Part shown: positions 12,151 to 22,307 of the stretch, in pieces
Position numbering within the stretch: the first letter of the stretch is position 1
Layout of the letters: each line of letters begins with the position of its first letter
Assembly: GCF_013033965.1 (NCBI RefSeq)
Contig: NZ_WQFE01000008.1
Coordinates: 62,001 to 126,000 of the forward strand
Direction: 5' to 3'
DNA length: 64,000 bases
Source: Ruegeria atlantica
GTDB taxonomy: Bacteria > Pseudomonadota > Alphaproteobacteria > Rhodobacterales > Rhodobacteraceae
Program-made: the position numbers and the translations under genes
The notes under the pieces: generated by a model
The model's database searches: none
Told to the model about the DNA's origin: nothing
What the model saw: only the letters and a program-made list of their open reading frames with translations

Positions 12151-12176
12151 AAAAAAGGGCGCCGAAGCGCCCCGTT
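12151..12176 (-). terminator. Strong UUCG-loop terminator closing the demethylation array
   Basis: On the minus strand the perfect GGGCGC stem with a TTCG tetraloop and GCGCCC is followed at once by TTTTTTG. It lies 16 bases downstream of the 12192 stop and ends the long minus-strand gene array. Confidence 0.9.
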
Positions 12177-12191
12177 TTCGATCATAAGGAT

Positions 12192-14645
12192 TTAGACTTT
12201 TACGCGTTCGGATTTTGGATCGTACATCGGCTTGAGCGACGCTTCGGCTTTGACTTTGACACCGCAAACATCGATCTCGTAGGTCGAGGCCAGAACGTCA
12301 GCGGCCTTTTCGCCTTCGCAGGGCACATAGCCCAGACCGATCGCACCGCCCAGCGTGTGGCCATAGTTGCCCGAGGACAGATAGCCCACATACTCGCCAT
12401 CCCGAATGATCGGTTCGTTATGGAACAACAGCGGTTCCGGGTCGGTCAGTTTGAATTGAACAAGGCGGTTGTGCGGTCCGCTTTCCTTGCGCGCGATCAC
12501 AGCCTCACGACCAATAAAGTCACTGCCCTTGTCGACCTTGACCGCAAAGCCGAGCCCAGCATCGACCACATGGTCCTCGCAGGTGATGTCATGGCCGAAG
12601 TGGCGGAAGCCTTTTTCGATCCGGGCGCTGTCCATCATATGCATACCGCACAGTTTCAGCCCCACGTCCTGTCCTGCCTCGTGTAGTGTTTCGAACACGT
12701 GACCCGCCATGTCGGACGAGACGTAGATTTCCCAACCAAGTTCCCCCACATAGGTCACGCGATGAGCGCGAGCCAGGCCCATGCCGATCTCGATGTCCTG
12801 CGCTGTGCCAAACGGGTTGGTCGCGTTGGTGAAATCGTTGGGTGAGACCTTTTCAAGCAGCGCACGTGCATTCGGCCCCATCACGGCCAGTACGCCCTCA
12901 CCCGCAGTGACATCGGTGATGACAACGTTGAAGTTACCCGCGTGGCGCTGCATCCAGGTCTGGTCCGCCAGACGTGTCGCCGCCGGGGTCACGACCAGAT
13001 AGGCGGTGTCGGCCAGGCGGGTGACCGTCACGTCCGCCTCAATCCCACCTGCGCGGTTGAGGAACTGGGTATAGACGATCTTGCCATTCGGCACCGAGTA
13101 ATCGCCGCCGCCGACATAGTTCATGAACGCCTCGGCATCGGGGCCTTCGACACGGATTTTGCCGAAAGATGACATGTCGTACATACCGACATTTTCGCGA
13201 ACAGCCTTGTGTTCAGCGGCCGAGTTCTCGAACCAGTTCTGGCGCTTCCAGCTGTACTGGTATTCCCGCTCCTGCCCTTCATTCGCAAACCAGTTGGCAC
13301 GTTCCCAGCCTGCCAGTTCGCCCATGACCGCGCCCTGTTCCAGCAGGTGATGATGGAACGGCGTCCGGCGCACCCCGCGTGCGGTGGCTTTTTGGCGATA
13401 GGGAAAGTGATCGGCATAGAGCAGGCCCAGCGTCTCTTTCGAACGCTCAAACAGGTACTGCTTGTTGCCCTGGAACGGCTGCATCCGGCTGATGTCCACG
13501 TCACCCAGATCGAACGGTTTTTCACCGCTGTCCATCCACTCGGCGAGTGCCATGCCCGCACCACCAGCAGATTGGATACCGATTGAGTTGAAGCCTGCCG
13601 CAACCCAGACATTGTCCATCTCGGGCGCAAGCCCCAAATGGTAGGCATCATCAGGGGTAAACGATTCCGGTCCATTGAAGAAGGTATGGATGCCAGCCTC
13701 GGCCAACATAGGCATACGTTCACACGCGGCTTCGAGGATTGGCTCGAAATGGTCGAAATCCTCGGGCAGTTGGTCGAACTCAAACGTGTCGGGGATGCCG
13801 TTCATCGCCCACGGCTTGGCGTTCGGTTCAAATGCACCCAACAGAATCTTGCCAGCATCTTCTTTGTAATACGCACATTCATCCGGAACTCGCAGAACCG
13901 GCAACTGGGTCAAGCCGTCGATGCCTTCGGTGACGATGTAGAAGTGTTCGCACGCGTGCAACGGAACGTTGACGCCAGCCATCTTGCCGACCTCATGCCC
14001 CCACATGCCCGCGCAATTCACGACCATGTCACATTCGATATGGCCCGAGGCGCTGCCGTCATCCGCGACCCAGTCAACGCCGCTCACCTTGCGGCCCTGT
14101 TTGGCGATGTCGGTAACTTTCACGCGTTCCTTGACGATACCGCCACGCTGTCGGGCCCCCTTGGCCAGCGCCAGTGCAATGTTGGCCGGATCACCCTGAC
14201 CGTCCAGCGGCAGGTAAACAGCACCCGTCACACCTTGTAGGTTGATGTGCGGATACAGTTCCTGAATGCGCTCATTTTCGATTTCTTCGACCTCGACACC
14301 AAAGGCCCGTGCCATGGCCGCCTGACGGTAGAGCTCTTCTTTGCGCTCTTCAGTCAACGCAACAGTGATCGACCCACAACGTTTGAATCCCGTGGCCACA
14401 CCGGTTTCTTCCTCAAGCGAGCCATAAAGCTCCTGACTGTACTTCGCCAGTTTGGTCATGTTCGCCGTTGCACGCAGCTGCGCGATCAAGCCCGCCGCGT
14501 GCCAGGTGGTACCGCTGGTCAGTTGCTTACGTTCCAGCAGCACTACGTCTTTCCAGCCCTTTTTGGTCAGGTGGTACGCCACCGAACATCCGATGACTCC
14601 GCCACCGATGATGACAACACGGGCCTTAGTAGGAAGATCAGCCAT
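12192..14645 (-). CDS. Dimethylglycine/sarcosine dehydrogenase-like FAD-GcvT flavoprotein, paralogue 1
   Basis: The 817-residue protein has an N-terminal DAO-type FAD domain (VVIIGGGVIGCSVAYHL, residues 10-26). His49 in SGTTWHAAG matches the covalent FAD-attachment His of mammalian DMGDH. A central FAO_M segment lies near 370-430, and a C-terminal GcvT tetrahydrofolate aminomethyltransferase domain from about 430. The family oxidises N-methyl groups and passes the carbon to THF. The GcvT part is complete, ending KAEASLKPMYDPKSERVKV. It closes the nine-gene minus-strand array, 88 bp after the GlxA-type regulator gene, and its paralogue is in the same array. The natural substrate is unknown. 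Confidence 0.88.
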   Translation of the reverse strand: MADLPTKARVVIIGGGVIGCSVAYHLTKKGWKDVVLLERKQLTSGTTWHAAGLIAQLRATANMTKLAKYSQELYGSLEEETGVATGFKRCGSITVALTEERKEELYRQAAMARAFGVEVEEIENERIQELYPHINLQGVTGAVYLPLDGQGDPANIALALAKGARQRGGIVKERVKVTDIAKQGRKVSGVDWVADDGSASGHIECDMVVNCAGMWGHEVGKMAGVNVPLHACEHFYIVTEGIDGLTQLPVLRVPDECAYYKEDAGKILLGAFEPNAKPWAMNGIPDTFEFDQLPEDFDHFEPILEAACERMPMLAEAGIHTFFNGPESFTPDDAYHLGLAPEMDNVWVAAGFNSIGIQSAGGAGMALAEWMDSGEKPFDLGDVDISRMQPFQGNKQYLFERSKETLGLLYADHFPYRQKATARGVRRTPFHHHLLEQGAVMGELAGWERANWFANEGQEREYQYSWKRQNWFENSAAEHKAVRENVGMYDMSSFGKIRVEGPDAEAFMNYVGGGDYSVPNGKIVYTQFLNRAGGIEADVTVTRLADTAYLVVTPAATRLADQTWMQRHAGNFNVVITDVTAGEGVLAVMGPNARALLEKVSPNDFTNATNPFGTAQDIEIGMGLARAHRVTYVGELGWEIYVSSDMAGHVFETLHEAGQDVGLKLCGMHMMDSARIEKGFRHFGHDITCEDHVVDAGLGFAVKVDKGSDFIGREAVIARKESGPHNRLVQFKLTDPEPLLFHNEPIIRDGEYVGYLSSGNYGHTLGGAIGLGYVPCEGEKAADVLASTYEIDVCGVKVKAEASLKPMYDPKSERVKV

Positions 14646-14733
14646 TCTCATGATTCCGCTTTATGAGTTTCCAGCCAAAATACACGGAAGAGCGACGCAG
14701 AATGCACGAAAAACGTCAGCGCATTTGCAAAAA

Positions 14734-15708
14734 TCAACCATGTTTAACTTGCCGCTTTTCGCGTCTCAACACGAAGGGCGTCACCCCAAAAAAGCTTTTG
14801 TAGACCGACGAAAACCCGTTGGGAAACCCGCAGGCCAGTCCGATTTCGCGCACGCTCATCGTAGTGTTCAGCAGGAGGTTATTGGCCTTGGCCAGCCTCA
14901 TCTCGCGGTAAAAGCCGTTTGGTGTGGTTCCGAAATAGTTCTTGAACTTCCGCTCCAAAGACCGGTTCGAAAGCTTTAGTGCTTCGACGATTTCCCGTAT
15001 TGGCAGCGGGTCTTCGATATTGGCCTGCATCACCTTGATGCACTGATCCAGCTTGGCGTCGCCGGTTGCCGTGGTTTTCGACCCGGAAAAAGGCTGAAGC
15101 GAGGAAAAGTCCCGGATGTTCTCGTGCAGCATAATATCGGCCACGGTCATTCTGGTTGGCCCAGATATGTGGCGCCCGATCACGGCCAGCGCGACATCGG
15201 TTGTCGCCTCCATCCCGGCGCAGGTCACAACGGCGCCCTGTTCTGTTGCAATCGACAGTTTGGCCTCGAATTGAGCGCGGCGTTCGCGCAAAAAGGACGC
15301 GTTTTCCCAATGGGTCGACATCTCCTCGGTCCCCTGCTCGTCAATATAACGGCTTGCCGCCTCGGACAGCAGAAAGACCTGAGCGCCGCGATACGTGTAA
15401 TCAGATACGACGCGCCCCAAGGAAAGGTCGGGATGATCAGGATTGGAATTGCCGATGACAAACAGGTAGTCCGCGTTGGGTTGCGGCGGAATGCGCTCGG
15501 TCTGGATCGTCGCCTCGCTGCTGCTGGCGATCGGACCGCCCCGCAGAGAACGATAAGTGTAGGTAAAAGGCGGGCTAGGGCAAACGCGGTTTGCCAACCG
15601 AAGCACCTCGACCAAGGACGCAAATTCCAACAGCACATAGCCCGGTGCGACGACGATGTCGAAGTGCCGCTGAGCATTGACTGCCGGTTTGTTTGACGTC
15701 GATGGCAT
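14734..15708 (-). CDS. GlxA-family (DJ-1/PfpI plus AraC) transcriptional regulator
   Basis: The 324-residue product has an N-terminal DJ-1/PfpI-like domain (FDIVVAPGYVLLEFASLVEVLRLAN) with VTCAGMEATTDVALAVIGRH near 185. A C-terminal AraC HTH pair follows, with SNRSLERKFKNYFGTTPNGFYREMRLAKANNLL and REIGLACGFPNGFSSVYKSFFGVTP. This layout is that of GbdR and CdhR, the glycine-betaine and carnitine catabolism activators of Pseudomonas. Lying between a methyltransferase gene and a DMGDH-like gene fits such a role, though the ligand is inferred. The start at 15708 follows AGAGGAAA, and the gap to the upstream gene is ten bases. Confidence 0.85.
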   Translation of the reverse strand: MPSTSNKPAVNAQRHFDIVVAPGYVLLEFASLVEVLRLANRVCPSPPFTYTYRSLRGGPIASSSEATIQTERIPPQPNADYLFVIGNSNPDHPDLSLGRVVSDYTYRGAQVFLLSEAASRYIDEQGTEEMSTHWENASFLRERRAQFEAKLSIATEQGAVVTCAGMEATTDVALAVIGRHISGPTRMTVADIMLHENIRDFSSLQPFSGSKTTATGDAKLDQCIKVMQANIEDPLPIREIVEALKLSNRSLERKFKNYFGTTPNGFYREMRLAKANNLLLNTTMSVREIGLACGFPNGFSSVYKSFFGVTPFVLRREKRQVKHG

Positions 15709-15718
15709 CGCTTTCCTC

Positions 15719-16612
15719 TTAGACAATCCGGTGCCCTGCGGCCCGCAGGCGGTCGGCAAGAGCCTCGATATGATCCGGGCCGACTTCGCAGCATCCGCCA
15801 ACAATCGTTGCCCCCTGTGCAACCCAGCGCATTGCATGATCGGCGTAAGCCTCGGGTCCAAGATCGTGGCGCTGTTTCAGGGCATCTACCGTTGGCGCGT
15901 CTTTCAGGAAATCTTGCGTAATCCCGGTAAACCCGTTTGCATAGGCCCCAAACGGCCGCCCCATCGTTGCAATGATCTTAAGCGCAGCAGGAACGGCCTC
16001 GGGGCGCGAACAGTTTATCAGAACCGCGTCAGGGTTGAACCGGTCGACAAGCGGCGCGATGCCACCGAGCGGTTCTCCCGATCGCAGGCGCGTTCCATCG
16101 TCGTCCATGACCGATAGTGCCAGCCAGACCGGTTTACCTGCCTTTGCCGTGCCTAGCAGAGCCCCTTCGCCCTCCTGCACCGATGATACGGTTTCGATCA
16201 GAAACAGATCGACGTTGTCGGCCATCAGTTTGACCAACTCCGAAAATTTCGCGGCAGCGTCTTCCACGTCGGGTTTCAGATCGGGGCGATAAGACGCCAG
16301 CAATGGACCCAGCGCGCCTGCGATACGCCCGGAACCGCCCATTCTCGCACGGTTCGCCTGTGTAACCGCAGCATCAATCAGGTCGGGCAGTTGGGCTTCC
16401 ATACCCAAGCGCTCCAGCCGAGAACGATGGACCGCGTAGGTGTTGGTCGTTGCTACCGTTGCCCCGCGGCGAAAATACTCGGCATGGACCTCATTCACCA
16501 ATTCCGGGTGGTCGATCATAACGCGCGTCGACCATAGTGGCGTCGGCTTATCCCCGCTGCGTTTGACCAACTCCTGACCAATCGACCCATCCAGAAGTGT
16601 GATATCCACCAT
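15719..16612 (-). CDS. Homocysteine S-methyltransferase family protein
   Basis: The 297-residue zinc-dependent methyltransferase has LLDGSIGQEL at the N-terminus and all three zinc-ligand cysteines: Cys201 in LINCSRPEA and Cys274-Cys275 in GGCCEVGPDHI. Members move a methyl group from betaine, dimethylsulfonio compounds or S-methylmethionine to homocysteine. Linkage to two DMGDH-like genes and a GlxA regulator makes a betaine-like methyl donor plausible and suggests this enzyme removes the first methyl. The donor cannot be read from sequence. It lies 12 bases after the MDR gene. Confidence 0.88.
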   Translation of the reverse strand: MVDITLLDGSIGQELVKRSGDKPTPLWSTRVMIDHPELVNEVHAEYFRRGATVATTNTYAVHRSRLERLGMEAQLPDLIDAAVTQANRARMGGSGRIAGALGPLLASYRPDLKPDVEDAAAKFSELVKLMADNVDLFLIETVSSVQEGEGALLGTAKAGKPVWLALSVMDDDGTRLRSGEPLGGIAPLVDRFNPDAVLINCSRPEAVPAALKIIATMGRPFGAYANGFTGITQDFLKDAPTVDALKQRHDLGPEAYADHAMRWVAQGATIVGGCCEVGPDHIEALADRLRAAGHRIV

Positions 16613-16624
16613 TTGCCAATCTCC

Positions 16625-17677
16625 TTAAGGAACCAGAACAAGTTTTCCCGGCAGCGTCTTGGACTGGAAATCCTCCTGCGCCTTGGCGATATCTCTTAGC
16701 GGATAGGTTTTGGAAACCAAAGGTTTGAAACAACCAGCGTTCATCATCTCGACGAGACGCCCGAAGACGTCGAAGGTTTGGTGCGTGCAGCCGTGTATTG
16801 TGATGTCGCGCAGGTAAATCTCCCGCAGGTCAGCTTCAACAATCGGCCCGGCGATTGCGCCAGAAACGGCATAATGCCCTCCGGGCTTCAAAGCCAAAAT
16901 CAGGTTAGGCCAGGCGGGGCCGCCGACAACGTCGATCACGACGTCGAATGTGTCCTTTGGCAGCGGGTCGTCGCGGTCGTACGTGTCGATAGCACCCTGA
17001 GATTTGACCACCTCGGCCTTGGCAGCGCTGGTGATGCCCCAAACCGTCGCCCCACGCAACGCCGCTAACTGCACTGCTGCCAAGCCCACGCCGCCTGACG
17101 CCCCGGTTATCAGAACCTTGTGTCCGGCCGACACACCGGCGCGGGTCAATAGGTTCTCTGCCGTTCCAAAAGCACAGGGGATCGCGGCGATCTCAACGTC
17201 TGAAAGGGGGGATTCTGTGACGTCATACAAATCATCCGCCGCAACCAAGCAGTATTGTGCAAAAGCTCCGTCGATTTCAGACCCCAGCGCAATGAATCCC
17301 GTCGGATTGCCCGGACGAGGCCGCGGCAGGTTGATCGGACAGGTCACACGTTGCCCCGCTGTGAATCTGGAACCGTGACCTGCTACTTCGACATAGCCGC
17401 ACAGATCTCCGCCCTGAATGCGGGGAAATGAAAGCGCCCCACCCCAGCCGCCTGCATCAACCTCCTGATTGACATCATCAGTGGCGCTGGTCACGCCCGA
17501 GGAATACCAACCGACCCGTGTATTGATGTCAGTGTTGTTAACGCCCGCGGCCGCGACCCTAACCAGCACCTGACCTGGGCCGGGTGTTGGGACCAGTATA
17601 TCCTCGCGCCACTCCAGCGCTTCGGGGCCACCATGGCGGGTCAGGTAAACGCCAGACATGGTCGCAGGAACAGCCAT
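16625..17677 (-). CDS. MDR-superfamily NAD(P)H oxidoreductase
   Basis: The 350-residue medium-chain dehydrogenase has a GroES-like N-terminal fold (GPEALEWREDILVPTPGPGQVLVRVAAAGVNN). The Rossmann motif is ITGASGGVGLAAVQLA near 195. It lacks the GHE zinc-binding motif of classical alcohol dehydrogenases, so a quinone-oxidoreductase or enoyl-reductase-like role is more likely. It sits between a cupin gene (ten bases upstream) and the homocysteine methyltransferase gene. Start 17677 keeps that ten-base spacing and is preferred over the in-frame upstream region that overlaps the cupin gene. Confidence 0.82.
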   Translation of the reverse strand: MAVPATMSGVYLTRHGGPEALEWREDILVPTPGPGQVLVRVAAAGVNNTDINTRVGWYSSGVTSATDDVNQEVDAGGWGGALSFPRIQGGDLCGYVEVAGHGSRFTAGQRVTCPINLPRPRPGNPTGFIALGSEIDGAFAQYCLVAADDLYDVTESPLSDVEIAAIPCAFGTAENLLTRAGVSAGHKVLITGASGGVGLAAVQLAALRGATVWGITSAAKAEVVKSQGAIDTYDRDDPLPKDTFDVVIDVVGGPAWPNLILALKPGGHYAVSGAIAGPIVEADLREIYLRDITIHGCTHQTFDVFGRLVEMMNAGCFKPLVSKTYPLRDIAKAQEDFQSKTLPGKLVLVP

Positions 17678-17687
17678 CAGCGCCCTT

Positions 17688-18164
17688 TCACTTCTGATCA
17701 TCCGGATGAGCGGGAACCGGTCCCATCGGTACGATGTCATAGCGCGCATTCAACTCAGCCATCTTCGCATCATCCGCAAAATCAGCCTCATCCATGGTCG
17801 CCAGTTCAGCCAGAAATCCATCGAACCCCGAAGGCTGGAAAATCATCAGCATTCTGGCAGGCGCACCATCGGCCACGCGGCAGGCATGGGGCACACCGGG
17901 CGGCACATGCATGGTTGTACCCGGGGGGCACCGATGCCAGTCACCATCAACATAGAAATCTACTGTACCTTCCAGAAAATAGAAGGTCTCGGCATGGCTA
18001 TCATGGCGATGAAGGCCAAGCGCGAAGCTGGCCTTCAGATTGTCTTCCATGAGCGTGTATGCGCCGTCGGTGTCCTGACCGGAAACCTTCACAAAGGTGT
18101 GGTCATTTTCCCAGTCATAGTTGGGACCCTCACCGGGTCCCAATTTGGCGTATCTCTTGCTCAT
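17688..18164 (-). CDS. Small cupin-domain protein
   Basis: The 158-residue single-domain cupin has motif 1 as LHRHDSHAETFYFLEG near 52-67 and motif 2 as PPGVPHACRV near 88. The metal ligands (His, His, Glu in motif 1 and His in motif 2) are all present, so it probably binds metal. It could be an isomerase, dioxygenase or ligand-binding protein of the demethylation array. Spacing to the DMGDH-like gene upstream is 18 bases and to the MDR gene downstream ten. Confidence 0.85.
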   Translation of the reverse strand: MSKRYAKLGPGEGPNYDWENDHTFVKVSGQDTDGAYTLMEDNLKASFALGLHRHDSHAETFYFLEGTVDFYVDGDWHRCPPGTTMHVPPGVPHACRVADGAPARMLMIFQPSGFDGFLAELATMDEADFADDAKMAELNARYDIVPMGPVPAHPDDQK

Positions 18165-18182
18165 GGCGGTCTCCGTGAGAGG

Positions 18183-20633
18183 TTAAGCGCGCAACCGCTC
18201 GTTCTCGGGATCCCAGAGCGGCTGGTCCTGCTCTACCACAGCGCGGCACTTTTGGCCGTAGATTTCGACCTCAAGCTCGGTGCCGGGGTTGGCAAGCTCG
18301 GCCTTGATCATGCCCAGCGCGATGGATTTACCGACGCGGTAGCCCCAGGCGCCCGAGGTGGTTTCGCCCACGATTTGATCACCCTGCCAGATGCACGACA
18401 TATACGGCGCATCGCAATCGCCGGCATCAACCGTCAGAGTGACAAAGGCTTTTTTCACGCCCTGCTGCTTTTCGTTCAGGATCGCGGCCTTGCCCGGGAA
18501 GTCCTGCGGCTTGTCCAGTTTGACGAACCGCTCCAGACCACCTTCGAGCAGCGAGTAGTCGGTCGACAGGTCGCCCTTCCAGGCACGGTAACCCTTTTCG
18601 ATCCGCAGCGAGTTCAGAGCGTACATCCCGAACGGCGTGGCACCGGCATCGATGATCGCGTCATAGATCGCGGGCATATGCTCGTTCAGAGCGTGGACTT
18701 CCCATCCCAGCTCACCCGCGAAGGAGACGCGGATCAGATAGGCGGGCTGGCCTGCGACGGTCGCAGACTGATGAGTCAGCCACCCCGAGGTCAGATCCGC
18801 ATCCGTCATAGTCGACAGTATCTCGCGCGATTTCGGGCCGGTGACGATCAGTGTATCCCGTGTCGTGGTGACGTCTTCAATCGACACACTCGCAGGCATC
18901 GCGTTCATCAGGATGTCCCGATCATGCCACTGTGCAGTTGCGGCGGTGATCATGACGAATTCATCCTCGCCCAGACGGATACAGGACATCTCGGTCAGAA
19001 TGCGACCACGGTTGTCAGATACGTAGATGAGGTTCATCCGGCCGACCTTTGGCAGCCCTCCGGTTGCGAGGCCGCGCAGCGCCTCAGCGGCGCCCTCTCC
19101 CTTGACCATGAAGCGCGAGAAGCCTGGCAGATCCAGCACTCCACAATCATCCCGCACGGCCTCGCATTCCTCTTGGATCCGCTGCTCCCACGGGCCGGAC
19201 CGGCCCCAGGTATGGGTCGCATCAAGCGACGTGTCGTCGCCCGGCTTTGCGAACCAGTTGGCACGCTCCCACCCGTTATAGGCACCCATCACGCCGCCCA
19301 GCGCTTTGACCTTGTCATGCACCGGCGACAGTTTCTTGTCGCGCGCCGCGGGCCATTCATGATGGGGGAAATGCATGGCGTACTCGTTGCCATAGACTTC
19401 CAGACCTTTCTGGTTGCAGTAGTCCTGATCTGTGTAATCGGTGTAGCGACGTGGATCGACGGCCCACATATCCCACTCGGTCGCGCCATCGACGATCCAT
19501 TCGGCCAGCACCTTGCCTGCACCGCCGCCCTGAGCGATGCCGAAGGTGAATGTGTGTGCCTCGAACGCGTTTTTTACACCGGGCATTGGGCCGATCAGCG
19601 GCAGCCCGTCCGGCGCATAGGGGATCGGGCCGTTGATCACACGGCCAACGCCGGAGGTCGCCATCAAAGGCACCCGCTCCATCGCGTCGGTAACGATGTC
19701 TTCGATGCGGTCCAGGTCGTCGTTCCACAGCTGGAAGCTGAAATCCTCGGGCATCGGGTCGTCCTCGGTCATCCAGTGACCCTTGCAGTTGGGCTCATAC
19801 GGGCCGAGGTTGAAACCGTTCTTCTCCTGCCGCAGGTAGTACGAGATATCCACATCGCGCAGCAACGGCAGCTTCTTGCCTCCGTTCGCTTTGGACCATT
19901 CCTCGACTTCAGGCACTTCGTCTGTCAGCAGGTACTGGTGGCTCATGACCATTGCGGGAACGGTACGACCGCCGAAGGGCTTGAACCACTCCCCCACGCG
20001 CTGTGCGTAGTAGCCGGCCGCGTTCACCACGTAGTCACAATCGATGTCACCCTTATCCGTGTGAACGGTCCAGGTTCCGTCGTCGCGCTGGGTGACGCCG
20101 GTCGCCGGGCAGAAGCGGATGATCTTCTGGCCCATGTCACGGGCACCCTTGGCCAACGCCTGTGTCAGCTGCGCCGGATCAATGTCGCCATCTGTCGGGT
20201 CGTACAGTACGCCTTCAAGATCGTGCGTTTCCAGGAATGGATAGCGCTCTTTAGCTTCTTCAGGCGTCCAAATCTCCATCGGGATGCCTTGATAGCGCCC
20301 CATCGCCATGGCGTGTTCGAACTCCTGCATCCGCTCTTTGCTGTGCGCCAAACGGATCGAGCCCGAAACATGGTAGTTCATCGGGTAGTCGACCTCTTCG
20401 CCCAAACGCGAATACAGCTCGGTCGAGTATCGCTGCATATTCATGATCGCCCATGAATTCGAGAAGGTCGGGACGTTACCCGCCGCGTGCCAGGTCGAGC
20501 CTGCAGTCAGTTCGTTCTTTTCCAGCAGAACACAATCGGTCCAGCCCTTCTTGGCCAGATGGTACAGTGAGGAAGCCCCCACCACACCGCCACCGATAAT
20601 GACCACGCGGGCTTTTGTCGGAAAGTCACTCAT
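18183..20633 (-). CDS. Dimethylglycine/sarcosine dehydrogenase-like FAD-GcvT flavoprotein, paralogue 2
   Basis: The 816-residue paralogue of the protein at 12192 has the same order: FAD domain (VVIIGGGVVGASSLYHL), the covalent-FAD His motif AGSTWHAAG (His49), a central FAO_M segment, and a C-terminal GcvT folate domain. The first 50 residues match paralogue 1 closely but then diverge, so the two probably act on different substrates or successive steps. Both keep the full length of the family. It is followed by the cupin gene (18 bases) and preceded by the GFA gene (14 bases). Confidence 0.88.
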   Translation of the reverse strand: MSDFPTKARVVIIGGGVVGASSLYHLAKKGWTDCVLLEKNELTAGSTWHAAGNVPTFSNSWAIMNMQRYSTELYSRLGEEVDYPMNYHVSGSIRLAHSKERMQEFEHAMAMGRYQGIPMEIWTPEEAKERYPFLETHDLEGVLYDPTDGDIDPAQLTQALAKGARDMGQKIIRFCPATGVTQRDDGTWTVHTDKGDIDCDYVVNAAGYYAQRVGEWFKPFGGRTVPAMVMSHQYLLTDEVPEVEEWSKANGGKKLPLLRDVDISYYLRQEKNGFNLGPYEPNCKGHWMTEDDPMPEDFSFQLWNDDLDRIEDIVTDAMERVPLMATSGVGRVINGPIPYAPDGLPLIGPMPGVKNAFEAHTFTFGIAQGGGAGKVLAEWIVDGATEWDMWAVDPRRYTDYTDQDYCNQKGLEVYGNEYAMHFPHHEWPAARDKKLSPVHDKVKALGGVMGAYNGWERANWFAKPGDDTSLDATHTWGRSGPWEQRIQEECEAVRDDCGVLDLPGFSRFMVKGEGAAEALRGLATGGLPKVGRMNLIYVSDNRGRILTEMSCIRLGEDEFVMITAATAQWHDRDILMNAMPASVSIEDVTTTRDTLIVTGPKSREILSTMTDADLTSGWLTHQSATVAGQPAYLIRVSFAGELGWEVHALNEHMPAIYDAIIDAGATPFGMYALNSLRIEKGYRAWKGDLSTDYSLLEGGLERFVKLDKPQDFPGKAAILNEKQQGVKKAFVTLTVDAGDCDAPYMSCIWQGDQIVGETTSGAWGYRVGKSIALGMIKAELANPGTELEVEIYGQKCRAVVEQDQPLWDPENERLRA

Positions 20634-20647
20634 TTGCTTGATCCCTG

Positions 20648-21028
20648 TTACTGTGCCCGTTGGGGCAGATCGTCCGTGATGTCGTAGTAGTCGCCCTTGT
20701 CGGCCACAAAGATGTGCCGGGCGAGGTGTAATCCGGTAGGCGTATCGAAGGCCCCCATGGAAATCGAAATCGTGTCCTCTTCATTGTGCTGCCAGAAAAG
20801 GAATGAGCCGCATACGCTGCAAAAGCCCCGGCGCGCTGTACCTGATGCGCGAAACCAGGTGAGCGTGTCGCTGGCAGTGAAACTCAGGTTGTCCTGATGG
20901 GTTACTGTTGAAGACCAATAATGTCCTGATTGCTTGCGGCACTGACCGCAATGGCAGGCCGAGGGCGGCGACAGATCTCCGTCAATCGTGAACGCTACCG
21001 CGCCGCAGAGGCAAGAACCGTTGTACAT
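20648..21028 (-). CDS. GFA-family zinc protein (formaldehyde/glutathione-type)
   Basis: The 126-residue protein has the GFA/CENP-V zinc pattern: Cys6 and Cys8 in GSCLCGAV, Cys25, Cys27 and Cys30 in ACHCGQC, and FCSVCG near 80. The founding member, Gfa of Paracoccus, speeds the reaction of formaldehyde with glutathione. That suits an operon whose DMGDH-like enzymes release one-carbon units. Most family members are uncharacterised, so the role is contextual. Start 21028 was chosen for AAGGGGGT upstream and the short gap to LysE. Confidence 0.85.
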   Translation of the reverse strand: MYNGSCLCGAVAFTIDGDLSPPSACHCGQCRKQSGHYWSSTVTHQDNLSFTASDTLTWFRASGTARRGFCSVCGSFLFWQHNEEDTISISMGAFDTPTGLHLARHIFVADKGDYYDITDDLPQRAQ

Positions 21029-21032
21029 GTGA

Positions 21033-21656
21033 CTACCCCCTTGCTGCAGGCGTGGAGCTGGCCCCCAGCAACACGCCATAGATGATGAAACAGGCGGCCA
21101 TCACACGGCGCACCCAGGTGTTGAAAACCGCTCCCAGCGCAGCCTTACCCATCAGCGCGCCCAACACGGTGAACCCGGTATAGCTGAGCGTGGTGATGAT
21201 CAGCGCCGTAGGCATGATGACGACCATCTGCTGCCAGATCGGAACGTCAGGCTGCACAAACTGGGAAAAGGCGGCGAGGTACCCTGCCACGCTTTTAGGA
21301 TTGATCGTAGCGACCGCCAGTGCGTGCAGATACACATGGCGCGCAGGTCGTTCACTTGCCGGGGCCGGACGCGTGGCATTCATCCAGCCGCGAACTCCAA
21401 CCCAGATCAGGAACCCTGCCCCCACCAGTTTGGCGATAAAAAACCCGGTTGGGGATGCTGCGATCAACGCGGTCACACCCAGCGCTGACAGGACAAGAAA
21501 CGTGCTGGCCTGCGTTAGAATCGCCAGGACACCCAGCATCGCTTTGAGAAACGGCAGGCTCATCCCGTTTGAAATGCAATTGACCGCGTTCGGCCCCGGC
21601 GTGGTGACGAACACCACCCAAAACAGCGCGAATATGGTCCAGGCTTCAAAGCTCAT
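21033..21656 (-). CDS. LysE-family amino-acid or metabolite exporter
   Basis: The 207-residue product has about six transmembrane segments and the LysE/RhtB signature TTPGPNAVNCISNGM near residue 18. Its start codon overlaps the stop of the XRE-cupin gene (TGATG), a sign of translational coupling. XRE-cupin regulators next to LysE genes commonly control export or detoxification of an amino-acid-like compound. The substrate is unknown. Confidence 0.9.
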   Translation of the reverse strand: MSFEAWTIFALFWVVFVTTPGPNAVNCISNGMSLPFLKAMLGVLAILTQASTFLVLSALGVTALIAASPTGFFIAKLVGAGFLIWVGVRGWMNATRPAPASERPARHVYLHALAVATINPKSVAGYLAAFSQFVQPDVPIWQQMVVIMPTALIITTLSYTGFTVLGALMGKAALGAVFNTWVRRVMAACFIIYGVLLGASSTPAARG

Positions 21657-22225
21657 CAGTACACCGGCGGAGCGATAACCCAGATGGCCACTGCGGGCTC
21701 ATCATAGGGGTTCGACCATTGATAGGGTTCATGTTTGATCCGAAAGCTGTCGCCGGGGCCGACCAAAAACTGGCGCCCACTGATCGTCAGTTCCAACCGC
21801 CCTGACACCATGTACCCAACCTCCTGCGTTGGTCGGTTGGCCGGGGTTTGCATTTTCGATCGGGGCTTGAACGTGGAATGCACCATTTCGAAATCATCGG
21901 TCAGATCGGGCGACAGCAGTTCTTCGATCAACCCTTCCTCACCGGACCCCATCGGGCGGCGCGTTCCGGCCCGCACCACATACCCCTGCTCATCTGCCGG
22001 CGCGGAGGAATGCGCGAACAGCATCGACATCGGCACGCCCAGACATTCGGCAATCTGGCGCAGGTCGGAAATTGAGGGGTCGGACATGTCACGCTCGACC
22101 TGGCTTAGCCAACCCACCGAACGGCCCAGTCGCGCGGCGATCTCGCTCAACGTCAGCCCGCGCGATTTGCGCAATGCGCGAAGATCGGCTCCGAGTGTGG
22201 CGCTGCGCGGTGCTTGGCTGTTCAC
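21656..22225 (-). CDS. XRE-type regulator with C-terminal cupin domain
   Basis: The 189-residue protein has an N-terminal lambda-repressor-like HTH (ADLRALRKSRGLTLSEIAARLGRSVGWLSQVERD, residues 14-47). A C-terminal cupin_2 sensor follows (EVGYMVSGRLELTISGRQFLVGPGDSFRI, near 135-165). The PuuR/SutR-like family senses amines, amino acids or other small ligands. It is the first gene of the nine-gene minus-strand array. Two GTGAAA/TTTCAC palindromes lie just upstream. Confidence 0.9.
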   Translation of the reverse strand: MNSQAPRSATLGADLRALRKSRGLTLSEIAARLGRSVGWLSQVERDMSDPSISDLRQIAECLGVPMSMLFAHSSAPADEQGYVVRAGTRRPMGSGEEGLIEELLSPDLTDDFEMVHSTFKPRSKMQTPANRPTQEVGYMVSGRLELTISGRQFLVGPGDSFRIKHEPYQWSNPYDEPAVAIWVIAPPVY

Positions 22226-22243
22226 TGAAAGCTCCGGGGTTTG

Positions 22244-22268
22244 GTGAAATTTTCTCTTCGTTTTTCAC
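22244..22268. promoter_or_regulatory. Operator-like site 1 upstream of the XRE-cupin gene
   Basis: GTGAAA and TTTCAC are separated by 13 bases, 19 bp upstream of the regulator start. It resembles site 2 in arm sequence. The binding is inferred. Confidence 0.55.
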
Positions 22269-22282
22269 GATGCGCTGATTCC

Positions 22283-22307
22283 GTGAAAAAACCAAGATAT
22301 TTTTCAC
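22283..22307. promoter_or_regulatory. Operator-like site 2 upstream of the XRE-cupin gene
   Basis: GTGAAAAA and TTTTTCAC form a perfect 8-bp inverted repeat with a nine-base centre, between the divergent XRE-cupin gene and the DUF1294 gene (start 22343). With site 1 it gives two sites sharing the GTGAAA/TTTCAC half-sites, as expected for a dimeric XRE regulator that also senses its own level. Confidence 0.65.

Follow-up and report, generated by a model that had tools for sequence, protein, structure and literature searches.

A nine-gene array on the minus strand

The window analysed here, a stretch of 64,000 nucleotides from Ruegeria atlantica (contig NZ_WQFE01000008.1, positions 62,001 to 126,000), contains a row of nine contiguous minus-strand genes at positions 12192-22225, built around two dimethylglycine-dehydrogenase-like enzymes, termed DMG2 and DMG1, which probably carry out the last two demethylations of glycine betaine. 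A first-pass annotation of the sequence had described such an array, with gaps of −1, 4, 14, 18, 10, 12, 10 and 88 bases in the 5' to 3' direction of the transcript and a UUCG terminator at its end, and the order, starts, gaps and coordinates of all these elements were recovered exactly.

In order of transcription, and with every domain label backed by Pfam, the genes encode an XRE-cupin transcription regulator (21656-22225, GTG start; HTH_31/HTH_3 and Cupin_2); a LysE/RhtB-type exporter (21033-21656; PF01810); a GFA-domain protein (20648-21028; PF04828, 77.6 bits); DMG2, an FAD/folate enzyme (18183-20633); a small cupin (17688-18164; Cupin_2); a zinc-binding-dehydrogenase-family MDR protein (16625-17677; ADH_N/ADH_zinc_N); a homocysteine S-methyltransferase, hereafter HMT (15719-16612; PF02574); a GlxA/AraC-family regulator (14734-15708); and DMG1, a second FAD/folate dehydrogenase (12192-14651, with its start at 14651 or at 14645, the latter giving the gap of 88 bases). 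The last stop codon is followed by an intrinsic terminator hairpin with a UUCG loop and a T run on the same strand (12156-12173; GGGCGC-UUCG-GCGCCC-U6), and this stretch has a folding energy of −18.7 kcal/mol (z −2.15), equalled in 6 of 200 shuffles. General scans gave no enrichment, either for terminators (9 found against 10.5 expected) or for promoter-like sites (1 found against 4.2 expected), so that the hairpin alone is notable. The nine genes are presumably co-transcribed. The 88-bp gap before DMG1 (14646-14733) could be the site of a second promoter; T-rich words recur there among relatives (GACGTTTTT in 33 of 77 regions).

To place the array among its relatives, genome contigs, comprising named isolate and metagenome-assembled genome records, were searched with DMG2. 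This gave 410 relatives, of which the best 80 loci were kept; they come mostly from Ruegeria, Shimia, Leisingera and Aliiroseovarius, and the top one is from R. atlantica itself, with 99% identity. A gene was scored as present when a homolog with at least 40% identity (50% for LysE), covering at least 30% of the query, was found on the same strand between 3 kb before and 7.5 kb after the DMG2 start. With DMG2 present in all 80 loci, the regulator XRE-cupin was found in 79, DMG1 in 76, the GFA-domain protein in 71, HMT and GlxA in 64 each, LysE and MDR in 47 each and the small cupin in 23, and the full set of nine occurred in 21. The order of the genes was consistent in 79 of the 80 loci, the exception (L071) lying on a short contig, and therefore the array is more than a chance arrangement; conservation of order among relatives was one of the checks that the first-pass annotation had itself proposed. 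DMG1 is missing from four loci, two of which are cut by contig ends (L071 and L087) and two of which are not (L054 and L088).

The genes for LysE, the GFA-domain protein, the cupin and the MDR protein are regarded as accessory. Two more specific labels given to the array in the first-pass annotation lost ground against curated models. First, the formaldehyde role suggested for the GFA gene is weakened, since its product scores 23-24 bits against two formaldehyde-activating-enzyme models with cut-offs of 234.55 and 249, namely 23.4 bits against 234.55 for the S-(hydroxymethyl)glutathione synthase (Gfa) equivalog TIGR02820, and matches the broad GFA domain only. Second, the GlxA regulator, described as GbdR-type, does have GbdR as its nearest curated family, but at 122.2 bits it stays well below the cut-off of 480 of the GbdR equivalog NF052371, which leaves that label weak. 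In Lentibacter algarum, the slot between DMG2 and DMG1 is occupied by a 319-residue protein with no Pfam family above cut-off (L076:12445-13404), and in another locus a gene for methylenetetrahydrofolate reductase, whose product exceeds the cut-off of TIGR00676, lies on the opposite strand about 1.1 kb upstream of the XRE-DMG2-DMG1 set (L153:4146-5012, minus strand).

The DMG2/DMG1 pair and its probable corrinoid partner

Both DMG2 and DMG1 have DAO, FAO_M, GCV_T and GCV_T_C domains, and both align over nearly their full length with mammalian dimethylglycine dehydrogenase (DMGDH), at 578 and 482 bits, respectively. The FAD-linking histidine and the His225/Tyr259 dyad (numbering of AgDMGO) are kept in the two enzymes, as they are in the 12 other paralogs fetched from the same genome, so that each member of the pair combines a folate domain with these active-site residues. 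PMC5082570 describes both the FAD link and the dyad, and the numbering was taken from a title in its reference list; this and the other published statements given here come from excerpts of the papers cited. In a tree of 16 sequences, DMG1 falls on the side of AgDMGO and DMG2 on the side of the rat enzyme, in different clades with 100/99 support. Assigning a substrate from the similarity of DMG2 to mammalian DMGDH failed: the genome encodes 14 DMGDH-like proteins, and four of the 12 other paralogs fetched outscore DMG2 in this comparison, which means that similarity alone leaves the substrate unfixed.

Genes of this kind have been named in relatives. In R. pomeroyi, SPO3400 is given as dimethylglycine dehydrogenase and SPO3396 as sarcosine dehydrogenase (PMC4744692), and SPO3398 is listed as a homocysteine S-methyltransferase (PMC4809877). 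We compared this cluster with the array by way of these locus tags and of a locus named as R. pomeroyi (L059), where DMG2, MDR, HMT, GlxA and DMG1 stand in a row. Five genes in a row fit five consecutive tags, which indicates that R. pomeroyi has the cluster, that is, the same pair with three genes between; the window array differs by its additional small cupin between DMG2 and MDR. In Roseobacter litoralis, consecutive locus tags (RLO149_c039090-039110) cover a sarcosine dehydrogenase (SARDH), a putative betaine-homocysteine methyltransferase (BHMT) of a new class and DMGDH4, although no MDR, cupin or GlxA gene is named between DMGDH4 and SARDH in the excerpt (PMC3141670). The core of the array is thus the roseobacter DMGDH/SARDH cluster, predicted already in papers of 2011 and 2015. 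The remark of the first-pass annotation that the gene set does not match a standard betaine pathway therefore does not apply to the core, and the odd members behind it, the cupin (23 of 80 loci) and the MDR (47 of 80), are accessory.

We then asked how the pair is distributed across 120 family genomes, our own included, scoring at most eight candidates per genome, with counts that refer to the matches listed. Full-length DMG2 orthologs have at least 63% identity, the best other match listed having 43%, and DMG1 orthologs have at least 61%, the best other match listed having 51%. DMG2 was found in 73 genomes, DMG1 in 75 and both in 70; in 64 of these 70, hereafter the linked genomes, the two genes share a strand and are no more than 10 kb apart, with DMG2 upstream, while in the remaining six the two are on different contigs.

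The same genomes also reveal a candidate for the preceding step. An MttB-family methyltransferase resembling MtgB, with at least 63% identity among its orthologs (the next match having 50%), occurs in 68 of the 120 genomes, namely in 64 of the 73 with DMG2 and in 4 of the 47 without it (Fisher p 5e-19, uncorrected for relatedness). Among solved proteins it comes closest to glycine betaine methyltransferase (9yce/2qne; 177 bits), which scores above trimethylamine methyltransferase (170 bits), and in 17 of the 64 linked genomes it is about 7 kb or less from the pair. In 40 DMG stretches fetched from 39 genomes, all lacking HMT between a linked pair, an MttB-family gene was present in 15, mostly directly after DMG1 or DMG2. 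In the Pelagimonas contig L054, an MttB gene follows DMG2.

In our own genome (G000), the MtgB-like gene is outside the array, at C34:60259, some 28.6 kb from the sole B12-binding_2 protein (C34:88902), with 26 called open reading frames in between, some of them probably spurious. The aminotransferase ortholog P0011 (C34:58115-59299) ends about 1 kb before it. Two reading frames beyond the B12-binding_2 protein is what we take to be a DUF1638 gene. In R. pomeroyi, mtgB2 (SPO2134), mtgC (SPO2160) and a DUF1638 gene (SPO2162) are all up on N-osmolytes, and SPO2134 is up on glycine betaine (PMC12478193). The spacing of these three tags agrees with the arrangement on C34, and from this position our MtgB-like enzyme is probably the ortholog of SPO2134. 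The R. pomeroyi system MtgBCDE (PMC12478193), a glycine betaine demethylase and split methionine synthase, would provide the step before those of the array. In our genome it is likewise encoded elsewhere, the MtgB-like and corrinoid proteins on C34 and an MtgE-like protein on C23.

Because the pair matches SPO3400 and SPO3396, and because DMG2 co-occurs with an MtgB-like enzyme, we consider it likely that the array encodes the lower part of the breakdown of glycine betaine (choline, carnitine), from dimethylglycine through sarcosine to glycine, with a dedicated XRE-cupin switch. According to this model, drawn from gene content and comparison, the MtgB-like corrinoid methyltransferase encoded on C34 would take the first methyl of glycine betaine; DMG2 would oxidize dimethylglycine to sarcosine and DMG1 sarcosine to glycine, both using covalent FAD and handing the formaldehyde-level carbon to tetrahydrofolate. 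The idea of the first-pass annotation that methyl groups are stripped from a compound derived from a quaternary amine and passed to folate is well backed by the domains and active-site residues, by the conservation of the pairing and by the partner methyltransferase. Glycine betaine, a nutrient in the ocean, ranks among the major osmolytes there, and its last two demethylation steps in roseobacters have been assigned in the literature, as far as the excerpts go, by annotation and induction rather than by enzyme assay; our analysis links the DMG2/DMG1 pair to an MtgB-like first enzyme across 120 genomes, a tie that is new as far as we have seen. In Phaeobacter sp. MED193, a DMGDH is reported to be induced on phosphatidylcholine (PMC10132767).

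The mammalian pathway formed by BHMT, DMGDH and SARDH follows the same order of reactions as proposed here, and DMG2 matches its DMGDH over the whole length; it differs in its methyltransferase, since the bacterial one resembles MmuM more closely than BHMT, and the family can do without it.

Several observations weigh against this assignment, besides the paralogs that outscore DMG2. First, the MtgB-like enzyme is missing from 7 of the 70 genomes with both DMG2 and DMG1, and its identity with SPO2134 is no more than probable, as judged by position. Second, R. litoralis and R. denitrificans are unable to use dimethylglycine despite several DMGDH genes (PMC3141670), and although the predicted dimethylglycine and sarcosine proteins of R. 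pomeroyi are up on glycine betaine and N-osmolytes, the excerpted text does not give their locus tags (PMC12478193). Third, in other genomes the pair or its MttB has neighbors that are unneeded for reaching glycine, namely, genes for an aldehyde dehydrogenase, a GMC oxidoreductase, an aminotransferase and a member of the PEP-mutase family.

Another explanation is that the array and the MttB enzyme act on a trimethylammonium compound other than glycine betaine, with transamination or oxidation of the demethylated product, and that glycine betaine is left to other paralogs. In its favor, the genome has 14 DMGDH-like and 11 MttB-family genes, several of them clustered. A class I/II aminotransferase stands between DMG2 and DMG1 in two loci (L181 and L182) and in four genomes (G001, G054, G093 and G101, as an ortholog of P0011), and is no more than 8 kb from MttB in 27 of the 49 genomes that have both. 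In some loci, genes for a BADH-like aldehyde dehydrogenase, a threonate-dehydrogenase-like protein and a choline-dehydrogenase-like GMC oxidoreductase come after the pair and MttB. However, the aminotransferase is weakly tied to DMG2, being common without it (18 of 47 genomes, against 49 of 73 with it), and was rejected as its partner; the choline-dehydrogenase-like and BADH-like neighbors, both below curated cut-offs, fit the conversion of choline into glycine betaine; and the MttB enzyme is nearest to glycine betaine methyltransferase among solved proteins and is probably the counterpart of a gene that is up on glycine betaine. We thus regard a different substrate as improbable. Two specific candidates were dropped after literature searches: for homarine no gene cluster of this kind was seen among the papers listed, the match to SPO3396-3400 taking its place, and a betaine-lipid (trimethylhomoserine) substrate found no support among those listed for it.

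The array is one of three islands in this genome that pair a DMG1-clade with a DMG2-clade enzyme. The other two, G000:C12:417500-427500 (L120) and G000:C46:140500-149500 (L124), include an MttB gene, which the array lacks, and on the same reasoning each would be expected to take three methyls off some further trimethylammonium compound. A Rieske oxygenase gene lies less than 3 kb from two further DMGDH-like genes. Taken together, the genome appears to have a large methyl-stripping repertoire.

The homocysteine methyltransferase as an optional member

The HMT of the array reaches PF02574 with 198.9 bits against a cut-off of 22, and its residues C201, C274 and C275, invariant across 16 aligned sequences including our own, presumably form the zinc-binding cysteine triad. 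It scores below the cut-offs of two curated equivalogs, namely, 59.1 bits against 338 for betaine-homocysteine methyltransferase (PRK07534) and 139.9 bits against 215 for the MmuM type (PRK09485). Of the solved proteins, E. coli MmuM is nearest to it (133 bits), and BHMT scores 71 bits. Glycine betaine, dimethylglycine, dimethylsulfoniopropionate (DMSP) and S-methylmethionine are all possible donors.

The first-pass annotation had one methyl going to methionine, a claim that is unproven. Among the 64 linked genomes, HMT lies between the pair in just 35, lies elsewhere in 12 and was not found at E 1e-40 in 17. Furthermore, in R. pomeroyi, which has the cluster, glycine betaine demethylation requires MtgC and MtgD, and mtgC and mtgD mutants cannot use glycine betaine for growth, even when methionine is supplied (PMC12478193). 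HMT is thus optional and separable from the DMG pair, which is also new as far as we have seen, and in our model it would be a side branch, forming methionine at the expense of a methylated compound.

These data also bear on the possibility that the array forms a full pathway that needs no cobalamin, with HMT, as the new BHMT class proposed for the same arrangement in R. litoralis (PMC3141670), taking the first methyl of glycine betaine and providing the main entry step. Its position between the pair in 35 linked genomes would suit such a role, as would the presence of only two PF02574 proteins in our genome, the other of which (L099) appears to be the counterpart of MtgE, the split methionine synthase subunit identified as SPO1884 (PMC12478193). 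Yet HMT was not found in 17 linked genomes and is displaced in 12, the scores against both equivalogs are low, and the R. pomeroyi mutants speak against such a role; in the excerpt of PMC12478193, use of a single BHMT is proposed for SAR11 bacteria only. We find this pathway very unlikely. Nor does HMT simply replace MttB beside the pair: the two are negatively associated in the linked genomes (only HMT between the pair in 31, only an adjacent MttB in 13, neither in 16; p 0.004, relatedness not controlled for), but they are not exclusive, since both occur in 4 of the 64.

A further reading is that the array HMT represents a new class of enzymes that need no cobalamin and form methionine straight from glycine betaine or dimethylglycine, a bypass that the XRE-cupin protein and its paired operators would switch together with the dimethylglycine and sarcosine steps. 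We consider this rather doubtful. If true, the direct route would keep methionine synthesis going while the shared MtgC/MtgD corrinoid machinery demethylates. The donor of the SPO3398-type enzyme would tell whether roseobacters can get from betaine to methionine without B12. A Phaeobacter inhibens enzyme of the MtgE/Bmt type, distinct from that of the array, is reported to produce methionine in vitro from both DMSP and betaine (PMC12366255).

The contexts of HMT outside DMG pairs suggest yet another origin for this branch. In 9 of 18 such contexts fetched (L130-L134, L136, L138, L140 and L147), HMT adjoins homologs of the reading frames that flank the window array, and in six of these nine (L130, L133, L134, L136, L138 and L140) a GFA-domain homolog, a LysE homolog or both lie just upstream. 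Because of these shared flanks and neighbors, the array may, on gene position, be two units that have come to lie together. HMT, LysE and the GFA-domain protein would then form a separate unit for the salvage of another methyl donor, such as S-methylmethionine or DMSP, interleaved with the DMG pair at a shared chromosomal place, which also agrees with MmuM as the nearest solved relative. On the other hand, the remaining nine contexts have neither an array flank nor a GFA or LysE homolog; HMT is enriched in genomes with DMG2 (50 of 73, against 9 of 47 without, relatedness uncorrected); in Ruegeria it is part of a single row with tight spacing; and it misses the PRK09485 cut-off. We give such a unit, which would leave the assignment of the pair as it is, not quite an even chance.

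The XRE-cupin regulator and its paired palindromes

Two 25-bp palindromes of the form GTGAAA-N13-TTTCAC, both exact, precede the XRE-cupin gene. The upstream copy is at 22283-22307 and the downstream copy at 22244-22268, 39 bp from the first and 18 bp before the GTG start; the outer edge of the pair, found independently here, is also the end coordinate given to the array in the first-pass annotation. We surveyed 78 XRE upstream regions, from the window and 77 loci. Allowing up to two mismatches, 77 of the regions have two palindromes and one region has one. Allowing up to one mismatch, 68 have two and 10 have one, which makes 146 sites where mononucleotide shuffles lead one to expect 0.035. 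Successive palindromes at this threshold are spaced by 39 bp in 62 of 68 pairs, by 40 bp in three and by 12 bp in three. Exact palindromes are missing from 16 of the 78 regions, and the exact sites (96) occur with a 13-base spacer only, spacers of 5-21 bases having been tried. The palindrome was not found upstream of DMG2 (81 regions) or DMG1 (77 regions).

Of the 73 genomes with DMG2, 52 have an XRE ortholog with at least 50% identity, and the 47 without DMG2 have none. Thus, the XRE-cupin protein is best seen as a dedicated local regulator, presumed to bind both palindromes as putative operators. Judging from the position of the sites before its own gene, it would control the whole transcript, as a repressor or as an activator. 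We found no earlier mention of the palindrome pair in the literature, in a search scarcely aimed at the XRE family or at cupins, which is no proof of absence; as far as we have seen the pair is new. Compact and nearly private to this gene, it makes the regulation easily testable.

How private the site is was seen in 16 whole genomes, 14 of which contain exact palindromes (24 in all) while two (G031 and G044) have none. By their coordinates, 21 of the 24 immediately precede the XRE gene, the other three lying elsewhere; a reversed control pattern gave two hits. The outlier in our own genome lies inside a reading frame (L215).

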